Position numbers and translations under genes: made by a program
Part shown: positions 7,687 through 24,812 of the stretch, piece after piece
Numbering within the stretch: position 1 is the first letter of the stretch
Layout: the number at the start of each line of letters is the position of its first letter
Virus record (IMG/VR): IMGVR_UViG_3300037193_002971
Coordinates: 1 to 25,025 of that record
Origin: a virus
Length of the DNA: 25,025 nt
Reading direction: 5' to 3' (one strand)
Notes under the pieces: generated by a model
What the model was told of the DNA's origin: nothing
Database searches by the model: none
The model's input: only the letters and a program-made list of their open reading frames with translations

Positions 7687-8901
7687 CTAAGGCCGCGAGC
7701 CGGCCAATCTCGCGGAGCTGGTCGATGCCTGGCCGAGATGAGATCGCCCGTCCGTGTAGATCGCGAGTAACTTTTCCGAGAATGCCGCGGGATCGTGCTT
7801 CTCGCGAATTCTCCTGATCGCTCCCTGCGACTTCGCCAGGATCTGCCCCGGATTGGCAAAGATGTCCCGCACGACGTTCTCCAAGCCGGCGGCTATGTGG
7901 GCCGACAGATCACGGCGTTCTTGCGCGGTGGCGTATAGCGCCTCCCCGTGCATGTTCCGTGGCACTTCAATCAGCCAGCCGGCCTCACTCGAATTGATCT
8001 CCGGCAGGGCTCGCACGTTGGTGCTGATGACTGGGCAACTGCATGCCTGCGCCTCCAGCACCGAAAAGCCATAGGTGTCCGCGTAGGTGGGAAGCAGCGC
8101 AACGTGGGACTCGCGCATGATCTGCAGCACGGCGTCGTTGGGCAGAGAGTCGTGATGAGTGATCCAGTGCCGGTTGGCCGCGATCTCTTCTCGCGCGGAC
8201 AGCAGGTCGGCCGCTGTTTCGCCGCTCGCGTAGGGATCCAACTGAATCGAGCTTACCAGCGTCAGGTGTAGATCGAAGCCTTCTCTGCGCAGCCGACCCA
8301 GCACGTCCAGTACCTCTCGGCCACCCTTGCGGTGAAATGAGGCGCCCACCAGCACGAAGCGCATCGGCCCAGAGATCTCGACGTTACGCGGGTGCTGCTG
8401 TGATACGAGCAGCTTCTGCGGTGGGTGCAGCACGTGCATCTTGCTCTGGATCGCATCGGCGTACCGGGGAGCGAGGTCAAGAACGCGCTGCTGCATCCGG
8501 AAGTTGCAGCTGGACATGGCAATCAGTCCGCGACAGGTGGTGGAGGCGAGCAGCTTCAGCGCCGTCTGCACTCGCGCGTCCCCAACGGATGCGGCCCACA
8601 TCGCAGGGTTCAGCATGCTGCGGTAGCGAGGAACAACCGATTCGAAGGTCGTTACCCATGGCGTTCTGCCAAAGGAGACCTGGTTGAATAGGTGCAGGAC
8701 GTCAACCTGCCGGTGCAGCGCGGAACGGAAGTCCTGATGCAGATTCCAGCGGTCCCAGTGTCCGATCGACAGGTGCAATCGGTTGAAGATGCCAGCAGCG
8801 ATACTGGAAAGGTTCACGTCCCGCACGTACTCCACGTCGGGGCATGCGCCCACAACATTCCTGAGTAGCGGGTAGCTCCTGCCTGTGTATCCGACTCTCA
8901 T
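7687..8901 (-). CDS. Glycosyltransferase, GT4 family (404 aa)
   Basis: A cytoplasmic GT-B fold glycosyltransferase that should transfer a sugar from a nucleotide-sugar donor to a glycan or lipid acceptor. The N-terminal half begins M-R-V-G-Y-T-G-R-S. The donor-binding half begins near F-V-L-V-G-A-S-F-H-R-K-G-G, and carries the E-x7-E-like signature in D-T-Y-G-F-S-V-L-E-A-Q-A-C. The length of about 400 is normal for the family. I chose the ATG at 8901 because it overlaps the stop of the 38-aa gene upstream (ATGA) and matches the usual N-terminus; an ATG at 9069 would add unrelated sequence. It sits between the tail genes and the putative attP, where lambdoid phages carry accessory genes, so a role in altering the host surface after infection is plausible. 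The acceptor is unknown. Confidence 0.8.
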   Translation of the reverse strand: MRVGYTGRSYPLLRNVVGACPDVEYVRDVNLSSIAAGIFNRLHLSIGHWDRWNLHQDFRSALHRQVDVLHLFNQVSFGRTPWVTTFESVVPRYRSMLNPAMWAASVGDARVQTALKLLASTTCRGLIAMSSCNFRMQQRVLDLAPRYADAIQSKMHVLHPPQKLLVSQQHPRNVEISGPMRFVLVGASFHRKGGREVLDVLGRLRREGFDLHLTLVSSIQLDPYASGETAADLLSAREEIAANRHWITHHDSLPNDAVLQIMRESHVALLPTYADTYGFSVLEAQACSCPVISTNVRALPEINSSEAGWLIEVPRNMHGEALYATAQERRDLSAHIAAGLENVVRDIFANPGQILAKSQGAIRRIREKHDPAAFSEKLLAIYTDGRSHLGQASTSSARLAGSRP

Positions 8902-9014
8902 CGTGCCAGCACTGCGCCAATGACCAAGCCGACACACGCCCAGAAGAGGACGAGCAGAAGCGAGATGGGCAAGGGCTTTTTGCTGTCTGGCAGCCACCAG
9001 GGTTGCGTTTTCAT
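8898..9014 (-). CDS. 38-aa single-helix membrane protein, coupled to the glycosyltransferase
   Basis: The ATG at 9014 opens a 38-residue frame: a short polar N-terminus (M-K-T-Q-P-W-W), a lysine pair, and one hydrophobic helix at about residues 16-36. Its TGA overlaps the ATG of the glycosyltransferase as ATGA, the standard arrangement for translational coupling. No strong Shine-Dalgarno is visible; the upstream bases are locally A+T-rich and include CATAAT at -10-like spacing. The overlap and the coherent helix are the evidence that it is real. A small anchor or partner for the transferase is an inference. Confidence 0.5.
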   Translation of the reverse strand: MKTQPWWLPDSKKPLPISLLLVLFWACVGLVIGAVLAR

Positions 9015-9072
9015 GGTGGATGATTATGTAGCTAATTGAAACTTGACGAAATGACGGTTGCAGTGACATCGG

Positions 9073-9690
9073 TCACTTCTTCCAGGTGCGCCCCTCCTGC
9101 CAGCCGGGCCTCTTGACCTTCCGCCAGTCCCGGCTGATGACGCCCGGCTGGTAGGTGCTGGCTAGGCGCTTCGCCACGAACCCTTCCAGCTTCGCGCCCA
9201 GCACCAGCTTATTGAACAGGTCGGCATCGGCTGGGAAGTGACCCACGACGACCAGGCGGGGCACCAGCGGCGCGAGGAGGTCCACCAGGATCTTCTTGCG
9301 GTCGACCAGCGGGAGGTGCATCACAGAGTGGCCGTTGGCGTAGAGGATGTCGAAGGCGCAGATGGCCACGTGGTCAGCGCCCGGGTACCAGCGCCGATGC
9401 CGGGCCCGCGCCTGGAGCCGCTCGAAGTCCGAGCGGCCGATGTCGTCTAGGACGCAGACCTCGCCGTCGATGATGTGGGGACCGCCTGGCAGTTCGCCCA
9501 GCAGCTGCGCCACCTCTGGAAACCACTTCGTGCAGTTGGCGCCGCTCTTGGTCCGCAGTTCGACCGGATCGCCGCCTCCGGCACGCGCGAGCGTTCGGTA
9601 GCCGTCGTACTTGATCTCATAGATCCAGTCCGGATCCGTGAACGGCCGGCCGCCCTCGGTCGCGTGCATCGGCGCCGGGATGGTGATCAT
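9073..9690 (-). CDS. Minimal ATP-dependent DNA ligase (adenylation domain only, 205 aa)
   Basis: Seals nicks in duplex DNA through a lysyl-AMP intermediate. From the ATG at 9690, motif I is E-I-K-Y-D-G-Y-R with catalytic Lys27. Motif III is represented by I-C-A-F-D-I-L-Y, motif IV by L-E-G-F-V-A-K-R, and motif V by W-R-K-V-K-R-P-G near the C-terminus. The protein ends about ten residues after motif V, so the OB-fold domain that normally follows is missing. It most resembles the ligase domain of LigD and phage or archaeal relatives. The start overlaps the stop of the small upstream frame as ATGA. A longer form, starting at 9900 or 9942, is possible because a frameshift in that upstream gene puts it in frame with the ligase. 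Strand and position suggest an accessory gene. Confidence 0.8.
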   Translation of the reverse strand: MITIPAPMHATEGGRPFTDPDWIYEIKYDGYRTLARAGGGDPVELRTKSGANCTKWFPEVAQLLGELPGGPHIIDGEVCVLDDIGRSDFERLQARARHRRWYPGADHVAICAFDILYANGHSVMHLPLVDRKKILVDLLAPLVPRLVVVGHFPADADLFNKLVLGAKLEGFVAKRLASTYQPGVISRDWRKVKRPGWQEGRTWKK

Positions 9691-9900
9691 TTGTCCCGGC
9701 CAGCTGACGGGTAGTTCACCTGGGCCCGCAGCCGCTCCTCGTCCGTTTCCGGGACCTCCCGGGTTTCTTCCGTGCCTGGGACGACGCCCAGCGCTCCCGG
9801 CCGCCGCGGCATCCTCCGGTGACATCTTCCACCGGCTGGCGTGCGGCTTCTTGCCCGGTAGGCCTCGGAGGTAGTAGCGGGCGTAGGTGACCTGGCGCAT
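9687..9900 (-). pseudogene. Small phage gene upstream of the ligase, apparently frameshifted
   Basis: The frame from the ATG at 9900 encodes a coherent basic start (M-R-Q-V-T-Y-A-R-Y-Y-L-R-G, then S-R-W-K-M-S-P-E-D-A). From about 9793 the coherent sequence continues in the other frame as A-L-G-V-V-P-G-T-E-E, then R-E-V-P-E-T-D-E-E-R-L, ending at a TGA that overlaps the ligase ATG. Removing one base near 9795 joins the two into a single frame of about 70 residues. As written, the first frame instead runs through a Gly/Arg/Pro-rich stretch into the ligase. I read this as a one-base insertion, either a mutation or a sequencing error in a G-rich run. The function is unknown. Confidence 0.55.
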
Positions 9901-9942
9901 GGAGAGGAGAATAACGGCCGGCCATCCGAAACCAGGGGCCAA

Positions 9943-17240: not shown

Positions 17241-18145
17241 GCCGCCTCCCGAATCGCGTTGATCACGTCGCACGCCACCGGCGGGCAGACAGCGTTCCCA
17301 AACATGAAGGTGGCCAGCGTGATGCTGTCCGGGTACAGGTAGCCGTTGGGGAACCCCATGAAGCCGCAGGTTTCGGCCGCCATCAGCATGCGCATCCGGT
17401 CGCCATCTACCACGCCCCAGCGGTTCTTCGTGGTGATCGCGCCGATTGGGCGGCGCAGACAGCGGCCGGTCAGCCCCGATCCGCTCCCGTAGTAGGGCAT
17501 CACGAACCGGGTGCCAAAGCAGGCGCGACCCCTGGCAACGCGAGCGCGGGTCGCCGGCACCTTGTCCGCGACCTGCGTCCAATTGCCGGCGGCGAAGTCG
17601 ATCACATCGGCGGCAGGCACGTGCGAGCGCTGCGGCAGCTTCAGCTCGATCGGGTGCTTCGACCTGGTGCCGACGATGAACAGCCGGCGGCGATGCTGAG
17701 GAACGCCATGGTCCGCGGCGTCCAGGATCATCGGCGCCAGGGCGTAGCCGAGCGCGTGCATCGCGGCGCACCACGCGGGGAACAGGATCCATCGGCTGTA
17801 CTCGGGGACGTTCTCCACCAGCACAACGGGCGGGCGGTGGCACTCCGCGGCGCTAACCACGGCCCACGCGGTGGAGCGCTGGGCGTCATGATGCGGCCGC
17901 TCCTTGCCGCGGGCCCGGCTGTGACCCTGGCAAGCCGGCGACGCCATCAACAGGTCGTGCGCAGGCACGACCGTCCAGTCGGCCTGCTGCAGGTCCTGGC
18001 ACACGTGCTCCGTTTCCGGGTGGTTGTTCGCGTGCACCTGCACGGCCGCAGGCCAGTGGTTGGCGGCCCAGACCACGCGGCAGCCGGCCATCTTGGCGCC
18101 GGTGCTGAAGCCGCCGGCTCCGGCGAACAGGTCGATCGCTCGCAT
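17237..18145 (-). CDS. dcm: C5-cytosine DNA methyltransferase (302 aa)
   Basis: Transfers a methyl group from SAM to carbon 5 of cytosine in DNA. Conserved motifs are in order: motif I D-L-F-A-G-A-G-G-F (5-13), motif IV S-P-A-C-Q with nucleophile Cys72, motif VI E-N-V (111-113), motif VIII Q-H-R-R-R-L-F (150-156) and motif X G-N-A-V (283-286). Motif IV reads P-A-C rather than the usual P-P-C. The length is near the lower end for the family, with a short target-recognition region. No endonuclease gene is adjacent, so it is probably a solitary enzyme protecting phage DNA. The ATG at 18145 shares one base with the TGA of the reverse transcriptase, so it is translationally tied to the DGR. Confidence 0.9.
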   Translation of the reverse strand: MRAIDLFAGAGGFSTGAKMAGCRVVWAANHWPAAVQVHANNHPETEHVCQDLQQADWTVVPAHDLLMASPACQGHSRARGKERPHHDAQRSTAWAVVSAAECHRPPVVLVENVPEYSRWILFPAWCAAMHALGYALAPMILDAADHGVPQHRRRLFIVGTRSKHPIELKLPQRSHVPAADVIDFAAGNWTQVADKVPATRARVARGRACFGTRFVMPYYGSGSGLTGRCLRRPIGAITTKNRWGVVDGDRMRMLMAAETCGFMGFPNGYLYPDSITLATFMFGNAVCPPVACDVINAIREAA

Positions 18146-19521
18146 CAGGAGTTCACTTTCTTGTAGATCTTCGACAGGTCACCAGCCACCACATGCCCGC
18201 GCTTCAGCAGCACGCGCGCGATGGCGGCCTGTTCGTTGTGGCTGTGGCTGGCCTGGCGCACCAGACCGAGGTAGCTGTTCCCCGCCTGGAACACCTCGTC
18301 GGCCGGCATCTGCTGCAGCCGGCGCATTCCGCCGACCAGCGTGCGGCGCCTCGTCGTGCGCCGCCACGGCTTCACGATGTGGCCGACGAAGTCGATGCCG
18401 CGCGCCACCGGCTGCAGGATGGTCTTCGCGTCATTGAGCCGGGCGCCCAGGCGCGCCGGCAGGAATTCCCGGATCCGCGCGTGCGCCGTGTTCAGCCAGC
18501 TCGCGTCGTGGTGCAGCAGCACGAAGTCGTCGACGTAGCGCACGTAGTGGCGCGCGCGCACCTGGTGCTTGCAGAACTGGTCCAGCGCGTCCAGGTGCAC
18601 ATTGGCGAAGAACTGCGACGACAGGTTGCCGATCGGCAGGCCGGTGTTGGCCGGCGCGTTGAACAGGCTCTTGTGCGGCGGCACCTTGGCCAGCAGCTCG
18701 GCGCGGCCGCGCAGTTCCACGTTCTCGCGCGGATCGTGGAAGAGAACCTGGCCGGCCAGCCACAGCCACCAGGGCTCATGGATCTTCCTGGCCAGCTGCT
18801 CGTGCAATACGTTCTTGTCGATCGCGACGAAGAAGTTGGCCAGGTCGCACTTCAGGTAGTGGGCGGGGCGGCTCCAGTTCTCGGTGACGCTGCGCACGCT
18901 GGCCTCGAGCCGGCGCGCCGCGTAGAGCGTGCCGCGGCCTGGGATGCAGGCGCTGCTGCCGGCATCAAAGCTGGTGTGGAAGCGCGCCGCCACGTGGTTG
19001 TACAGGAGGTGGTGCACGATCCGGTCGCGGAAGTCGGCCGCCCACACCTCGCGCGGCTTCGGCCGCGTGATGACGAAACAGATGGAGCGGCCGGGGCGGT
19101 AGGTGCCCGCGGCCAGCTCCTCGAACAGCGCGCAGAGGTTCGCCTCGAGGTGGGCCTCGAATGCGAGGGCGCTGGCGGTGTTGCGCTTGTGCTGGCGGCA
19201 GTCCAGATAGGCCTGCACGAGCGCGGAGAACGAAAAGCTTGGATCTGCGGACGGCGCGGGCACGCGCCTCGAACTTCTTGTTGTTGTTGTTCTGGTTGCC
19301 GTTGTTGAAGTTCTGGTTCCAGGCGTTGTTGCTGGCGTACTGCGTTTGTTCGCGCTATCCACGTCGCCCTGCCGGAGGCCTGCGCCGACCAGCGGGGAAA
19401 CTGCGCCGGACCGGTCCTGCCTGCGGGCAGCGGTATCCGTGATGCGCATGGCGGTGCCCTCGTGAGGCAGCGGCGCGACCAGATTCAATGTGCGCTCGGG
19501 CATGTGGGCCGTGACCGTCAT
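18145..19521 (-). CDS. DGR reverse transcriptase (458 aa in the longest supported form)
   Basis: Copies the template RNA into cDNA with adenine-directed errors. The RT domain covers about residues 95-430: catalytic Asp226 in K-C-D-L-A-N-F-F, I-G-N-L-S-S-Q at 297-303 (the IGxxxSQ form typical of DGR enzymes, in place of QGxxxSP), and Y-V-D-D at 329-332. There is no maturase or endonuclease domain, so it is not a group II intron. The ATG at 19521 overlaps the avd stop as ATGA and is my choice. M25 at 19449, or a GTG inside or just after the TR, are alternatives because residues 1-95 lack family features. Residues 60-92 are the TR read in another frame and form a Thr/Arg-rich stretch. It ends in a one-base overlap with the methyltransferase gene. 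Confidence 0.93.
   Translation of the reverse strand: MTVTAHMPERTLNLVAPLPHEGTAMRITDTAARRQDRSGAVSPLVGAGLRQGDVDSANKRSTPATTPGTRTSTTATRTTTTRSSRRVPAPSADPSFSFSALVQAYLDCRQHKRNTASALAFEAHLEANLCALFEELAAGTYRPGRSICFVITRPKPREVWAADFRDRIVHHLLYNHVAARFHTSFDAGSSACIPGRGTLYAARRLEASVRSVTENWSRPAHYLKCDLANFFVAIDKNVLHEQLARKIHEPWWLWLAGQVLFHDPRENVELRGRAELLAKVPPHKSLFNAPANTGLPIGNLSSQFFANVHLDALDQFCKHQVRARHYVRYVDDFVLLHHDASWLNTAHARIREFLPARLGARLNDAKTILQPVARGIDFVGHIVKPWRRTTRRRTLVGGMRRLQQMPADEVFQAGNSYLGLVRQASHSHNEQAAIARVLLKRGHVVAGDLSKIYKKVNS
19247..19345 (-). repeat. DGR template repeat (TR), 99 bp
   Basis: In the coding direction this is 33 codons, eleven of them AAC, followed by a G+C-rich constant end encoding K-K-F-E-A-R-A-R-A-V-R. 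I count 33 adenines. It is 89% identical to VR1 (11 differences) and 83% to VR2 (17 differences), with differences almost only at adenines. Identity with VR2 runs four bases further, to 19243. It lies between avd and the RT domain, the order known from phage BPP-1, but here inside a frame open to the RT. Confidence 0.96.
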
Positions 19522-19883
19522 GCTGCAGGCGCCTTTTCGCGGGTCTTGGACATCCAGCCATTGGCCTGCTTGCCTATGCTGTCCAGCATCTCCACCGACC
19601 GCGCCCAGGGTTTCGTGGACACGGCGCGCAGGTCCAGCGCAACGCGCAGCCACACGGTGGCGGCTCGCACGTGCGTGAGGATCTGGCCGATGTGTGCCGC
19701 GCGCTGAGCACCCCTGGTGGCGTTTGCCAGCGCCATCAGGTCCAGCATTTCCGAGCAGTGGCTGACGATCTTGTCGCCCACCGTGCGCTTGAAGCCGCGA
19801 GGCATCTGCGCTTGGATGGTGGCGGCGAGACCGAGCAGCTCGCTTCCGGTCCTGTGAATCGGCAGTTGGTGGTGCAGGGCCAT
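19518..19883 (-). CDS. avd: Avd-like accessory variability protein (121 aa)
   Basis: Avd proteins are small, basic four-helix bundles that form a pentamer, bind the template RNA and the reverse transcriptase, and are required for mutagenic homing. This 121-residue protein is all-helical and basic, with helices over about 12-30, 33-55, 60-85 and 90-115 (A-A-T-I-Q-A-Q-M-P-R-G-F-K-R-T-V-G-D-K-I is typical of the first loop). The size matches the family of about 120-130 residues. Position immediately upstream of the TR and RT agrees with BPP-1. The start at 19883 has no Shine-Dalgarno; 17 bases separate it from the stop of the VR2 gene, a stretch occupied by the octamer repeats, so coupled translation is likely. 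Its TGA overlaps the RT ATG. Confidence 0.87.
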   Translation of the reverse strand: MALHHQLPIHRTGSELLGLAATIQAQMPRGFKRTVGDKIVSHCSEMLDLMALANATRGAQRAAHIGQILTHVRAATVWLRVALDLRAVSTKPWARSVEMLDSIGKQANGWMSKTREKAPAA

Positions 19884-19886
19884 TTG

Positions 19887-19910
19887 GAAGGACTAAAGGA
19901 TCAAAGAATC
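19887..19910. repeat. Three tandem degenerate octamers after VR2
   Basis: On the plus strand three consecutive 8-base units of the form (A/G)AAG(G/A)A(C/T)(C/T) lie between VR2 and avd. They include the stop codon of the VR2 gene (19901-19903). A related tract follows VR1 at 20507-20530. The TR has no such tract. Confidence 0.65.
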
Positions 19911-20494
19911 AATCTGCGGACGGCGCGGGCACGCGCCTCGAACTTCTTGCCGCCGTTGCTCTGGGTGCCGTGGAAGAAGCCCTGGAGCCAGGCGCCGTTG
20001 CTGGCGCCCTGCGTACTCGTCAGGTACCACTCCTTCTCGAACAGCTCGGGCACGTTGCACCACAGGAGGCGCGATTCGATCCGCGACGGCAGGTAAAAGT
20101 CGCTGTGGCCATCGATCTCCAGCGCCAGGATCTCGCGGCACAGGTCGCTGCCGGCTTGCGCGAATGCCTTCGTGTTGGCGAGGCCGTCATGGTCGCTGGC
20201 CGCGCCTTCCACCTCGGTACCGTAGGTGCCGATCGCGCGCTTTGTGAAGACGGACTTCGGATCGGTCGCTAGCACCAGGTGGTAGTCCGGCGCGCCGTCG
20301 CGGCCGCGCATCAAGCCGGCGTAGATGCCGCCCTGGCCAGCCCAGTACTCGCCGATGGCCGGCGGCACGGGCTTGCCCGTGGGCGCCGTGGTGATCTCCG
20401 CTTCCGGGGCGCTGCCGAACTCCGCGAGCGCAGAGAGCAACGCTGCGCCGAAGCCGGGCACGCTCAGGTGGATGTTGACGTTCTGGATGTGCAT
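19901..20494 (-). CDS. DGR target 2: DUF1566/C-type-lectin-like variable protein (197 aa)
   Basis: Starts at the ATG at 20494, with AGGAGG four bases further upstream. The N-terminal 120 residues are unrecognised (N-I-H-L-S-V-P-G-F-G). The C-terminal part follows the DUF1566 plan: D-F-Y-L-P-S-R, then E-W-Y-L-T-S-T-Q, then the variable stretch and R-A-R-A-V-R-R. VR2 covers residues 161-193. Compared with the template-encoded protein it differs at codon 3 (Y to G) and at nine of eleven Asn codons (G, L, G, F, H, T, S, G, G). It has no signal peptide or membrane segment, so it acts in the cytoplasm or in virions. It is 27 bases downstream of the other target and 17 upstream of avd. The ligand is unknown. 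Confidence 0.9.
   Translation of the reverse strand: MHIQNVNIHLSVPGFGAALLSALAEFGSAPEAEITTAPTGKPVPPAIGEYWAGQGGIYAGLMRGRDGAPDYHLVLATDPKSVFTKRAIGTYGTEVEGAASDHDGLANTKAFAQAGSDLCREILALEIDGHSDFYLPSRIESRLLWCNVPELFEKEWYLTSTQGASNGAWLQGFFHGTQSNGGKKFEARARAVRRLIL
19916..20014 (-). repeat. DGR variable repeat 2 (VR2), 99 bp
   Basis: Ungapped match to the TR over 33 codons with 17 differences. Sixteen are at template adenines; one is T to G at 20008, the first base of codon 3. The last 33 bases, corresponding to the initiation-of-mutagenic-homing side, are identical to the TR. Identity extends four bases further, to 19912. Confidence 0.96.
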
Positions 20495-20506
20495 TTCCCC
20501 TCCTGA

Positions 20507-20530
20507 AAAGGATTGAAGGATTTAAGGATT
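20507..20530. repeat. Three tandem octamers after VR1
   Basis: Three exact-length 8-base units, each NAAGGATT on the plus strand, start 12 bases after the end of VR1 and contain the stop codon of the VR1 gene (20522-20524). They abut the Shine-Dalgarno of the next gene. The related tract after VR2 is more degenerate. Confidence 0.75.
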
Positions 20531-21136
20531 GAGCTGAATCAAGCGGACGGCGCGGGCACGCGCCTCGAACTTCTTGCTGAGGCTGCCCTGGCTGCCGTCG
20601 TTGAAGTGCTGGCTCCAGGCGTCGTTGCTGGCGTACTGCGTGGAGCTCCAGTACCAGACGGGGTCGAAGGCCTCGGCCCCACCTTCGCGGAAGGCCTCAG
20701 CCGCGGTCTGCGCCGGCAGCTGCTCGGTGTAGGGATAGCCGGCCGGCAGGCTGCTCGGGTTGTCGCCGTCGCGGAAACTGGTGCTGTTCTCGTAGGTGGT
20801 GGGCTTCAGGTAGCGGTAGCCCAGCTCCAGAACGTCGCGCGCCGGGATGCACCAGTCGGTCTTGCCGTTGATGTCCAACCCGCGCGCCCACTGTCCCAGC
20901 GGGCTGCCGGCTTCGGCCATCGCCACGGTGTTGTCCATGCTGTGGAAGCAGCTGGTGGCGTTCGGCACGTCCTTGTAGCTGGGGAGCCAGATCATGGACG
21001 TCTCGCCGAGTGCCTTGGGCGCCCAAACAACGGCGAAGATCTTCTCGCCGCTGCGGATGCGGCCGCCGTAGAAGCCGCCTTCGAAGGGCGTGCCGTGTTC
21101 TGCGGGGACGAGGATGGAAGGGTTGTCGACGTTCAC
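20522..21136 (-). CDS. DGR target 1: DUF1566/C-type-lectin-like variable protein (204 aa, GTG start)
   Basis: I start at the GTG at 21136, which has AGGAG six bases upstream; the open frame runs further but only as shadow of the upstream gene. The protein is a DUF1566 domain: W-C-I-P-A-R-D-V-L-E-L near residue 95, then W-Y-W-S-S-T-Q-Y-A-S and the variable part, ending R-A-R-A-V-R-L-I. VR1 is residues 166-198. Against the template product, nine of eleven Asn codons are changed (D, S, H, D, S, G, S, L, S); Asn6 and Asn14 are kept. These positions are the surface-loop sites of the C-type-lectin fold used by DGR proteins to bind ligands. It has no signal peptide or membrane helix. It is 44 bases after the stop of the preceding gene in the recombination operon. 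Confidence 0.92.
   Translation of the reverse strand: MNVDNPSILVPAEHGTPFEGGFYGGRIRSGEKIFAVVWAPKALGETSMIWLPSYKDVPNATSCFHSMDNTVAMAEAGSPLGQWARGLDINGKTDWCIPARDVLELGYRYLKPTTYENSTSFRDGDNPSSLPAGYPYTEQLPAQTAAEAFREGGAEAFDPVWYWSSTQYASNDAWSQHFNDGSQGSLSKKFEARARAVRLIQLNP
20543..20641 (-). repeat. DGR variable repeat 1 (VR1), 99 bp
   Basis: Ungapped match to the TR over 33 codons with 11 differences, every one at a template adenine (66 non-adenine positions, none changed). The constant 33-base end is identical. Changed codons are 7, 10, 12, 15, 17, 19, 20, 21 and 22. Confidence 0.97.
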
Positions 21137-21180
21137 AGGGTTCTCCTGGTTGGGGTGTGATGTGTTCGTGAAATAGGCGG

Positions 21181-21903
21181 TCAGGCCTTCGCGCGGCGGG
21201 ATTGCTTGCCGGCGGCGCGCGCGATCTTCTTGGCGACCGGCGTCTTGCGCGCGGGCGGCTTGACCGTGACCTCCTTGCCCTCGGCGTGCTGCTGCAGCGC
21301 CCCGGCCAGCGCCTTCTCGGGCGTCAGCTCCTCTCCGAGCCCGTCGCCAGCGTCGTCCGGCTCGTCCCCGTCCTCTTCGGACGGAAGCTCCTGCTGGTGC
21401 ACCTGCGCGGCCTCGAGCTCGAACATGATGTCCGTGTCCTTCAGCAGCAGCAGGTCCCCGGCCGTGTCGCGGTCGATCTCGCCCGTGACCAGGGTGAAGT
21501 CCACCTGCACGGTGCCGCCGTCGCGGGAGCGGATCTTGAAGTCGCTCGCCTTGCAGTCCCTGAGCTTCAGCGGATCGATGGCCCGATCGACGATGAAGGT
21601 GCAGCCGGTCTGCTCGTCGTTCCAGCTGAGGGTGCCCAGCTTCGAACCTTCCTCGGTCAGGTTGGGAAGATCGGACACCACCTCGATGCCCTCCAGCTGC
21701 TTCTGCATCTTTTCGCTGCCGGCCGCCTTTTCGAACAGCAGTGTGCGGATGCGCGGAGAGAACTTGTCCAGGATCGCGTTCGGGGCCGTGGCCCTCACGT
21801 GCAGCTGCGCAGCCGGGCGGTTGTCCTTCTGTCCGAGCTTGATCGTGAAGCCGGCTACGTCCGTGATCCGGCCCTTCGTCTTGCCGATGAATTCCAGTCG
21901 CAT
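21181..21903 (-). CDS. Hypothetical protein of the recombination operon (240 aa)
   Basis: Begins M-R-L-E-F-I-G-K-T-K-G-R at 21903, with GGAG eight bases upstream. Residues 1-165 look like a compact beta-rich domain (G-F-T-I-K-L-G-Q-K-D, then C-T-F-I-V-D-R-A-I-D). An acidic linker follows (S-E-E-D-G-D-E-P-D-D), and then a strongly basic tail rich in Lys and Arg. I do not recognise the family. Its place directly after the exonuclease and RecT genes, and its basic tail, would suit a DNA-binding helper, which is inference. The next gene is DGR target 1. Confidence 0.75.
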   Translation of the reverse strand: MRLEFIGKTKGRITDVAGFTIKLGQKDNRPAAQLHVRATAPNAILDKFSPRIRTLLFEKAAGSEKMQKQLEGIEVVSDLPNLTEEGSKLGTLSWNDEQTGCTFIVDRAIDPLKLRDCKASDFKIRSRDGGTVQVDFTLVTGEIDRDTAGDLLLLKDTDIMFELEAAQVHQQELPSEEDGDEPDDAGDGLGEELTPEKALAGALQQHAEGKEVTVKPPARKTPVAKKIARAAGKQSRRAKA

Positions 21904-21932
21904 TTGAGGTTCTCCGGGGTTGTTGTTGGTGA

Positions 21933-23693
21933 TCAGGCGGCTTGCTGCTGGCGGTGCAGCGCGCGCACGTAGTCGACGTGGTGCAGCAGGGCGGTGCAGA
22001 TCTCGTCGAACTCGTGCTCGGAGAACTTCGTGGCGGAGCGGTCCTTCTCTCCGGCCACGCCCAGCTTCTCGGTGACGAACGCAGCGGGCAGGGTGAAGCC
22101 AAGGCGCTGAGCGACGCTGGTCAGGGTGAGCGTGCGCGCTGCGGACTGGGCTGGCGCCCGGGTGGGCATGGGGATGACGGCGGGGCTGGGGGCGGGCGTA
22201 CTGGCCGCTGCATCCCGGTCCTCGCGCTGCTTCCGCTCCTGCGCCTCGATGAGCTCGCGACGCTGCGCTGCTTCCTGCTCCTCGCGCTGGCGGCGCTCCG
22301 CGTCCTCGCGCTCCTGCTGCTCTCGGGCCGCGGCGGCGCGCGCCTTGGCTTCTTCCTCGGCTCTGATCTTCTGCCGTTCGGCCTCCAGCAGGCGTTCCTC
22401 CGCCGCCTTGTGCTCCGCGATCCGCGCCGCCACCAGTGCCTGCAGGTCGTCCGCTGCCTTCAGCACGATGGTGCCGACGTCCGGGAACAACTGCTTGTGC
22501 TCGCTGGCGTGCTCGCGCAGGTGGCGCAGGTTCATCGTGATCCGGCCGGCGATCTCGTTCGCCTTAAGCTTGCAATCAGCCAGGTGCTGGTCGATCGAAT
22601 CGCGCAGGCTTTGGACCGTCTTCTTGCCCTTGATCGCGGTCGGGAAGTCGTTGTCGACCTGCGGCATGTACGGCTTGCCGATCTGTGTGTTCAGACCGGC
22701 GATGTGTTCCGCGAGCGCCTGCTTGCCGCGTTCGATCTCTTCCCTGCGGATCTCCAGCTTGCGCGCTTCCACCAGTTTCTCGCGCTGCAGCCGGGTGTCG
22801 CGCGCCAGCTTGTGCAGGGTTGCCTTCAGCCGGCGCATCTGTTCGAAAGACTCCAGGCTCGCCAGTGCTGATTCCTCCTGCGCGTCCAGTGCTTCCTCCA
22901 CCTTCTTCAGCGCCTTGCAGGCGGCTTCGGCGTGCGCGAATTCCTCGTCGGTGGATGGCTTGGCCGGGATGCAGTCGATGTAGGCGCGCAGGGCCGGCGC
23001 CAGCACGTCCAGGTTGGAGATGACCCGAAGCGTGCCTTCCATCCGCACGCTCACGACCGGCAGGGCCTCCATCGGCGGGGCGACGGCCTTCGGCGGGGCC
23101 GGCGTGTGGTCGCCATGCTCCAGGTCGTGGTTGAACTGCGCCCAGCCGGCGCGCAGTTGCTCGGCGCGGCCCGGCACCCGCCGGTACTCCATCTGGACGC
23201 GACGCTCTTCGGTGCCGTCCGAGCAGACGAAGATCACCCGCTCGGCCTGGTTCGCCACGATCAGCTGCTGCTCCAGCTGCCATTCCTGGCCGTCGGGAAA
23301 TTCGGTGGCGCCAGCACGGATCGCGGCAGCCAATTCTTCATTCCACTGCTTGTGTTCGAAGATCGTGTCTTCGACCATCGTGATGCCGTCCAGGCTGGCG
23401 AGCATCGAGTCGTCGTCAGCTACCGCGGTGGCGGGATACAGTTCCTCGTCCAGCTGCTGCTCGGTAATGGCGCGCGCCGGCCGCTCCACCTGGTGTCCCT
23501 TGTCCAGAACCATTCGCTGGACGAAGTCGCTGAACTCCTTCTCCATGCCAGCGGACTTCAGCCGCAGCATCTCGGCACGCGTCATGTGGCGGCTGGCGCC
23601 CATGATGATCGGTGCCTCGCTGGCGCAGGGGTACTTTGAGCGGACAGCCTTCCACTCCGGAGAGCCTTGGATGAGTCCTTCCAGAATTCGCAT
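21933..23693 (-). CDS. YqaJ-type (lambda exonuclease-like) recombinase nuclease with long coiled-coil tail (586 aa)
   Basis: The N-terminal 220 residues are a PD-(D/E)XK nuclease of the YqaJ/lambda Exo family: Q-G-S-P-E-W-K-A-V-R, then S-L-D-G-I with Asp102, and F-E-H-K-Q-W with Glu113 and Lys115. It should resect double-stranded ends to produce 3' tails for RecT. The remaining 350 residues are unusual: helical, with a long charged Glu/Arg/Gln coiled coil at about 425-500 and a Pro/Ala linker before the end. The start at 23693 has AAGGA seven bases upstream and lies 12 bases after the RecT stop. Lambda Exo is only about 226 residues, so more than half of this protein is extra. Confidence 0.85.
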   Translation of the reverse strand: MRILEGLIQGSPEWKAVRSKYPCASEAPIIMGASRHMTRAEMLRLKSAGMEKEFSDFVQRMVLDKGHQVERPARAITEQQLDEELYPATAVADDDSMLASLDGITMVEDTIFEHKQWNEELAAAIRAGATEFPDGQEWQLEQQLIVANQAERVIFVCSDGTEERRVQMEYRRVPGRAEQLRAGWAQFNHDLEHGDHTPAPPKAVAPPMEALPVVSVRMEGTLRVISNLDVLAPALRAYIDCIPAKPSTDEEFAHAEAACKALKKVEEALDAQEESALASLESFEQMRRLKATLHKLARDTRLQREKLVEARKLEIRREEIERGKQALAEHIAGLNTQIGKPYMPQVDNDFPTAIKGKKTVQSLRDSIDQHLADCKLKANEIAGRITMNLRHLREHASEHKQLFPDVGTIVLKAADDLQALVAARIAEHKAAEERLLEAERQKIRAEEEAKARAAAAREQQEREDAERRQREEQEAAQRRELIEAQERKQREDRDAAASTPAPSPAVIPMPTRAPAQSAARTLTLTSVAQRLGFTLPAAFVTEKLGVAGEKDRSATKFSEHEFDEICTALLHHVDYVRALHRQQQAA

Positions 23694-23705
23694 GATTCGG
23701 TCCTT

Positions 23706-24812
23706 TCAGAAAGCAAGCTTTTCGCCGCGCTCGTCGGCGATGCGGGTGAGTTCGCCGCGCTGGCCTTCGTCGGCGATCTGTTCGATGAGTTCCTTGGCCG
23801 CGTCCAGCTGGTCGTGGTCCTCGGACTTCTGGATCGCGTCGGCGATCACGGCATAGGTGACCTTGGGCGTCACGTCCTGCACCTGGCTCGCAGGGCTGGC
23901 GGCCGTTGCCGCAGGCGCGGAGGTGGGCGACGGCGCGGCCGCGGCCTTGATGGCGCGGATCTCCGCCTTCTGCGCGTCGGTGAGCGGCGCCTTCGCCTCC
24001 ACCGTGGCGATGACCTCGTCGGCTGTCTTGCGCCCGGCCTCGATCAGCTTCCTCCAGGCGGGGAGGTTCTTGGCGAAGGCGGCCTGGTCGTAGGCGGCTG
24101 GGGGCGCGGGTGGCAGGACCTCGGCCGGGCCCATGAACTTCTCGTTCGGCTCAGCGAGTTCGTCAGGCGTGTAGACGCCGAGGATCACGTCCGGGGCGTA
24201 CAGCCGCGACCAGCGCTTCTGCGCCAGGTAGGCGATCTGCTGCTTCGGGTCCTCGGTCCAGAGCGTGCTGTTGCGGGTACGCGCCTGGGTCATAAGCAGT
24301 TCAAGGACGCGCGGCTCGCGCTCGCCCTTCAGCGTGGCCCAGACCCTCACGCCCAGGCCGCGTTCGTCTTCCTGCTTCCAGTCCGGAACGATGAACTTCT
24401 TCGGTCGGCCGTTGTCGTCGGTCTTGGTCTTGCTCTCGACCTCCTTGAACTTGCCGACGATCTTTTCCCACTCGCCGAACCATTCGAAGTGGAACCGGTC
24501 CTGCACCGCGCCGCTGCTGTTGATCACCGCGGACACGAGCTGCGCCTCGTAGCCCAGAGTGCCATTTACCAGGTGCGTCTTCTGCGCCACCGAGAAGGGA
24601 TTCATGCCCCACTGCATGGACTGCAGCGCGATGGCGAAGCAGTCGCCCTTGCTGCCGCGCAGGTGCTGCGGGACGGTAGTCTTGCCGCTGGCCATCAGGT
24701 CGGCGATGCGTTCCAGCCGCTCCATGCTGGCTTCGTGCAGCAGGAGCGCGCCAGCGGAGGCGCTGCTGGCGACGGCCAGGGCGGTGTTCTCGGACGGGTT
24801 CGGTGCGTTCAT
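23706..24812 (-). CDS. recT: RecT family single-strand annealing recombinase (368 aa)
   Basis: Binds single-stranded DNA and promotes annealing and strand invasion with the partner exonuclease. Diagnostic features are the A-L-Q-S-M-Q-W-G-M-N-P-F block followed by L-G-Y-E-A-Q-L-V and, further on, W-A-T-L-K-G near residue 180 and the T-R-N-S-T-L-W segment. The C-terminus has an Ala/Pro-rich linker and a helical acidic tail. Length fits the larger RecT proteins. The start at 24812 has GAGA a few bases upstream. The pair recT-yqaJ is a standard phage recombination module. Confidence 0.88.
   Translation of the reverse strand: MNAPNPSENTALAVASSASAGALLLHEASMERLERIADLMASGKTTVPQHLRGSKGDCFAIALQSMQWGMNPFSVAQKTHLVNGTLGYEAQLVSAVINSSGAVQDRFHFEWFGEWEKIVGKFKEVESKTKTDDNGRPKKFIVPDWKQEDERGLGVRVWATLKGEREPRVLELLMTQARTRNSTLWTEDPKQQIAYLAQKRWSRLYAPDVILGVYTPDELAEPNEKFMGPAEVLPPAPPAAYDQAAFAKNLPAWRKLIEAGRKTADEVIATVEAKAPLTDAQKAEIRAIKAAAAPSPTSAPAATAASPASQVQDVTPKVTYAVIADAIQKSEDHDQLDAAKELIEQIADEGQRGELTRIADERGEKLAF

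Follow-up and report, generated by a model that had tools for sequence, protein, structure and literature searches.

The variable region VR1, at the 3' end of a phage gene, is almost certainly one of the two sites targeted by a diversity-generating retroelement (DGR) in a temperate phage whose host we infer to be Burkholderiales-like, and its sequence reflects adenine mutagenesis templated by the template repeat (TR) followed by homing. The window analyzed here is the whole IMG/VR record IMGVR_UViG_3300037193_002971 (25,025 bases). RT, Avd, RT-15 RNA, TR and both targets were found in it and VR1 departs from the TR only at adenines; in 73 related loci copying from TR to VR is concerted, and the VR has turned over between sister contigs of a relative. 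The signature of VR1 is that of a textbook DGR, a system of a known kind. Two traits are less ordinary: the TR is enclosed by the open reading frame of its reverse transcriptase (RT), and template adenines that are followed by G (AG adenines) are spared.

Organization of the DGR cassette

The cassette lies on the minus strand in the order target gene 1 (with VR1), target gene 2 (with VR2), avd, RT-15 RNA, TR and RT (Table 1). It is flanked by a DNA methyltransferase on one side and by RecE/RecT-type recombination genes on the other, and a tyrosine integrase is also present on the record. The RT matched phrog_1423 (E 3e-110) and Pfam RVT_1, and its motifs IGNLSSQ and YVDD align with IGSLTSQ and YMDD of bRT from Bordetella phage BPP-1, the DGR SQ motif and the catalytic YxDD being intact. 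Avd matched phrog_3206, 'Avd protein of DGR' (E 1.2e-20), and reached 28.4 bits with Pfam bAvd, below the cut-off of 40. Directly upstream of the TR, the RT-15 RNA is a full-length member (1-192) of Rfam family RF03018, from which no difference was found (175.5 bits, gathering score 82). It was the sole Rfam DGR RNA in the window; the BPP-1-type Phage_DGR RNA (RF03022), present in BPP-1 and in locus L119, was absent. An RNA element 3' of the TR was also sought in the form of conserved synonymous sites at the 5' end of the RT gene, where no clear dip was seen.

Table 1 Features of the DGR cassette, in window positions.
Feature	Position	Strand	Remarks
VR1	20543..20641	-	3' end of target gene 1; 11/33 template A changed, 0/66 other positions
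Target gene 1 (VP1)	20522..21136	-	GTG start proposed, 204 aa; predicted Lcl_C/C-type-lectin fold, VR at C-terminus
VR2	19912..20014	-	3' end of target gene 2; 103-nt TR match
Target gene 2 (VP2)	19901..20494	-	197 aa; same fold family as VP1, as predicted by sequence
avd, accessory variability determinant	19518..19883	-	phrog_3206 match
RT-15 structured RNA	19343..19534	-	Directly 5' of TR, overlaps avd stop; RF03018
TR, template repeat	19243..19345	-	99 nt common to VR1 (19247-19345), 103 nt to VR2
DGR reverse transcriptase	18145..19449	-	phrog_1423, RVT_1; TR within coding sequence if start is at 19449
ATGA overlap of avd stop with RT-frame start codon	19518..19521	-	

Both target proteins appear to belong to the C-type-lectin family. 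VP1 matched phrog_4245 and, just below the 34.9 cut-off, Pfam Lcl_C (31.5 bits, E 2.3e-7). Its AlphaFold2 model (pLDDT 94.7) resembles the C-terminal domain of Legionella Lcl (8q4e, Z 12.3), a Bacteroides fimbrial protein (4eps, Z 11.4) and a variable protein of T. denticola (2y3c, Z 6.3), indicating that VP1 is a target of C-type-lectin fold with its VR at the C-terminal end. VP2 matched phrog_4245 (E 2.6e-27) and, below the cut-off, Lcl_C (E 0.005), and is by homology a predicted target of the same fold, again with a C-terminal VR. In the region 19901-24812 the DGR targets adjoin the RecE/RecT-type genes, without recognizable tail genes beside them, and in other phages of the RT-15 branch the cassette also lies in the integrase-to-RecT region. 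Elsewhere in the window (7687-9942, minus strand) a glycosyltransferase and a short ATP-dependent DNA ligase, possibly cargo genes, are encoded between a 2103-aa gene and the integrase.

The arrangement target-avd-TR-RT is that of the BPP-1 DGR (mtd/avd/TR/brt), with which the cassette shares adenine-specific TR/VR differences, DGR-type RT motifs and, as predicted here, a C-type-lectin target with a C-terminal VR; the RT is 36% identical to bRT. In contrast to BPP-1 with its single target, the window has two; its structured RNA (RF03018) lies 5' of the TR and not 3' of it between TR and RT (RF03022); and its TR directly adjoins the RT and falls in the open RT frame, while brt begins 144 nt past the TR. 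Burkholderia phage Magia, Pseudomonas phages Cruim01 and LPPA56 and Shewanella phage vB_Sb_QDWS lie on the same RT branch as our phage (59-66% identity), and all four have, as here, two or more VRs and an RT frame that is open through the TR. Magia differs by a further VR-bearing gene (L082:22018-22398) outside the cassette, ~7 kb off.

VR1 and VR2 differ from the TR at template adenines

On the coding (minus) strand VR1 aligns with the TR without gaps over 99 nt and differs from it at 11 positions, each of them a template A (8 A>G, 2 A>C and 1 A>T; TR positions 19, 29, 34, 43, 50, 55, 56, 59, 61, 62 and 65), while every C (35), G (23) and T (8) of the TR is unchanged. Were substitutions spread at random over the 99 positions, all 11 would fall on the 33 adenines with a probability of 1.5e-6. 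An earlier note on this DNA, drawn from a hand alignment, had reported just these 11 substitutions at TR adenines and none at the 66 other positions; our realignment of 20543-20641 with 19247-19345, tabulated by template base, matches it exactly and has no change at template C, G or T.

VR2 is altered at 16 template adenines and has a single non-A change, T>G at TR position 7 (16/17 at A). Together with the next base, a changed A, this T>G turns TA into GG at TR positions 7-8 (window 20007-20008), close to the 5' edge of the VR, and possibly shows where the copied tract ends. Relatives L022 and L067 have this double change too, and it is the main type of non-A change near the VR 5' edge. The repeat lengths are exact (99 nt for VR1, 103 nt for VR2), and the GC-rich 3' end is identical in TR, VR1 and VR2, with divergence immediately beyond. 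This end is a candidate IMH/IMH* pair; homing in BPP-1 also makes use of a hairpin downstream of the VR.

Nine adenines are changed in both VRs, with the same base in only 3/9, so that VR1 and VR2 look like products of separate homing events. This also bears on the idea that VR1 gained its diversity by gene conversion with VR2, or with the VR of another phage, and not by reverse transcription of the TR. The two VRs do adjoin each other and have their 3' end in common, but besides the low agreement at jointly changed adenines the unchanged positions follow the TR, and gene conversion alone produces no A-specific changes. We therefore regard this origin as very improbable and retain templating by the TR.

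The mutation signature is shared by a family of related loci

Eighty RT relatives were taken from viral contigs; nearly all have a TR, usually with two VRs. Among 135 TR/VR pairs from 73 related loci, collected by a scan that by design admitted few non-A changes and from relatives that are partly near-copies and so not all independent, template A was changed at 1579/3974 positions (39.7%) and non-A at 31/9252 (0.34%). A mismatch-blind scan, run as a check on that design, gave change rates of 0.41 for A, 0.011 for C, 0.020 for G and 0.035 for T. With the DGR hallmark parts present and the same signature in 73 related loci, the interpretation of the VR1 pattern as A-to-N mutagenic retrohoming, already put forward in the earlier note, is supported.

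VRs also track their own templates. Where the TRs of different loci vary at non-A sites, the VR has the base of its own TR in 6694/6715 cases. Between the window TR and that of its nearest relative, L002, there are two non-A differences, and VR1 and VR2 together match their own TR at 4/4. Descent of VR1 and TR from an old duplication through ordinary mutation, with A>G transitions dominant by chance or composition, would suit the 8/11 VR1 changes that are transitions. It is, however, contradicted by the pooled rates at A and non-A positions, as well as by the 1.5e-6 chance given above and by VRs that follow their own TR across loci, and is in our judgment practically out of the question.

The metagenome phage contigs L005 (22-125) and L006 (3173-3276) are sisters that show 20 VR differences, 19 of them at template A, and no difference in the ~5.78 kb after the VR; before the VR, bases at the contig end differ. 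They constitute a natural record of VR turnover by a DGR in relatives of the phage. Because VRs track their own TR in the L002 comparison and L005 and L006 differ almost solely in the VR, homing outpaces drift in this family. A sister of the present phage was sought with the exact 29-nt 3' end of the TR in viral contigs, and none was found.

The earlier note had also taken the signature to mean that homing was recent relative to drift. As a property of the family this stands; for VR1 itself the absence of changes at 66 non-A positions gives no date, because 110 of the 135 family pairs likewise lack any non-A change. VR1 is in this respect typical, 0/66 being the norm of its DGR family and setting an upper 95% limit on divergence of ~4.5%. 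A DGR that is real but inactive in this phage, with VR1 a fossil of earlier homing, would be compatible with turnover seen in relatives L005 and L006 only and with a record whose ends are not known. Against it, the RT motifs, Avd, TR, RT-15 RNA and target reading frames are all intact and the 66 non-A sites of VR1 carry no drift; we consider such a fossil unlikely.

Adenines followed by G are spared

Seven TR adenines are followed by G (positions 5, 13, 32, 53, 68, 71 and 77) and all are unaltered in both VR1 and VR2, compared with 11 and 16 changes, respectively, among the 26 remaining adenines. Across the RT-15 branch loci (the window and L002-L108), AG adenines within the mutated tract were changed in 5/422 cases, while 55% of other adenines <=6 nt from them were changed. 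The BPP-1 family differs, with 15/26 AG adenines changed in 50 pairs, all to G, albeit in small numbers. Bacteroides and Faecalibacterium DGR RTs, used as queries, yielded too few loci for this context test.

Such sparing could stem from selection on the target protein and not from copying fidelity, and most of the spared sites do fall at the middle base of a conserved CAG (Gln) codon. Yet among third positions at which A>G leaves the amino acid unchanged, AG adenines were changed in 0/35 cases versus 71/111 for other adenines (p 5e-13; these counts are partly replicated, with 24 and 73 distinct contexts, respectively). The high rate of change at neighbors within 6 nt and the altered AG adenines of BPP-1-family loci speak against selection as well, which leaves it a doubtful, though not negligible, explanation. 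The likeliest reading of these sequence patterns is a lineage-specific fidelity rule of the RT-15 branch RT: the mutable set in this branch appears to be the adenines without a following G, the RT appearing to copy an AG adenine faithfully. Sequence-context effects are on record for BPP-1 bRT (PMC12875486).

The TR lies within an open RT frame

The proposed RT start is an ATG at 19449-19447 preceded by GAGG at 8-nt spacing, which places the TR inside the coding sequence. An alternative is the ATG at 19521-19519, which overlaps the avd stop as ATGA; an NTGA overlap of avd stop and RT-frame start occurs in 59/93 relatives. No stop interrupts the RT frame between a point ~165-170 nt upstream of the TR and the RT core in 65/72 viral and 19/21 genome loci (84/93, RNA conservation making the loci non-independent). 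The other two frames over this stretch are open in 7/93 and 0/93 loci, and their stops in the RT-15/TR part fall in 23 and 29 distinct alignment columns. Stops in the RT frame are confined to 9 exceptional loci, and in each of them an ATG occurs within the TR or past it. These closed-frame loci do not form a single clade (5 changes on the RT tree), and RF03018 was also matched in every closed-frame RT-15-family locus tested. Between TR end and RT core the linker takes 13 different lengths, and 70/74 linkers are in one phase.

In five loci (L002, L046, L053, L060 and L096) the RT frame has no ATG, GTG or TTG inside or after the TR. Because of these loci and of the frame kept open, RT translation probably starts upstream of the TR, either at ATG 19449 or at the ATGA over the avd stop. 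Annotated starts lie upstream of the TR in Magia and inside it in Cruim01. Against an upstream start, constraint at the amino-acid level was sought by codon-phase entropy and none was seen in the RT-15 part (0.74, 0.75, 0.71), whereas the part after the TR showed a clear third-position excess (0.75, 0.70, 1.21). It thus looks as if in the RT-15/TR stretch the frame stays open while the encoded peptide is unconstrained.

Elements whose TR overlaps the RT ORF in its 5' part have been described before, as group 3 of the DiGReF paper (PMC3521204), the only one found in the literature on the RT-15/DGR link and on a TR within the RT gene. That paper treats the overlap of annotations only, whereas here frame openness and linker phase were tested in 93 loci.

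Proposed mechanism and implications

By analogy with the BPP-1 model, the avd-to-RT transcript would bear the RT-15 RNA and the TR, and RT with Avd would copy the TR into cDNA with misincorporation at template adenines. The cDNA would then take the place of the 3'-terminal VR in one target gene or the other, homing at the shared GC-rich 3' end, and the outcome would be new C-type-lectin binding faces on the target proteins. The biochemical steps, the ligand and the activity of this very DGR copy are inferred.

We tentatively suggest, as a possibility somewhat short of even, that RT-15 DGRs form a mechanistic branch of their own, with the RNA 5' of the TR, a TR that serves both as template and as translated RT N-terminus, and suppressed misincorporation at AG. 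A TR placed within the RT frame would also couple synthesis of the enzyme to templating by the same RNA. If the AG rule is intrinsic, one adjacent base decides whether a template adenine varies, and the lineage-specific fidelity of DGR RTs becomes directly testable; a rule under which adenines are mutable except before G seems not to be that of the one model enzyme studied. VR1 is useful as an entry to a family that includes near-identical natural phages differing only in the VR, and, should the RT-15 reading prove true, the mutation alphabet of this branch is not the one that BPP-1 writes.
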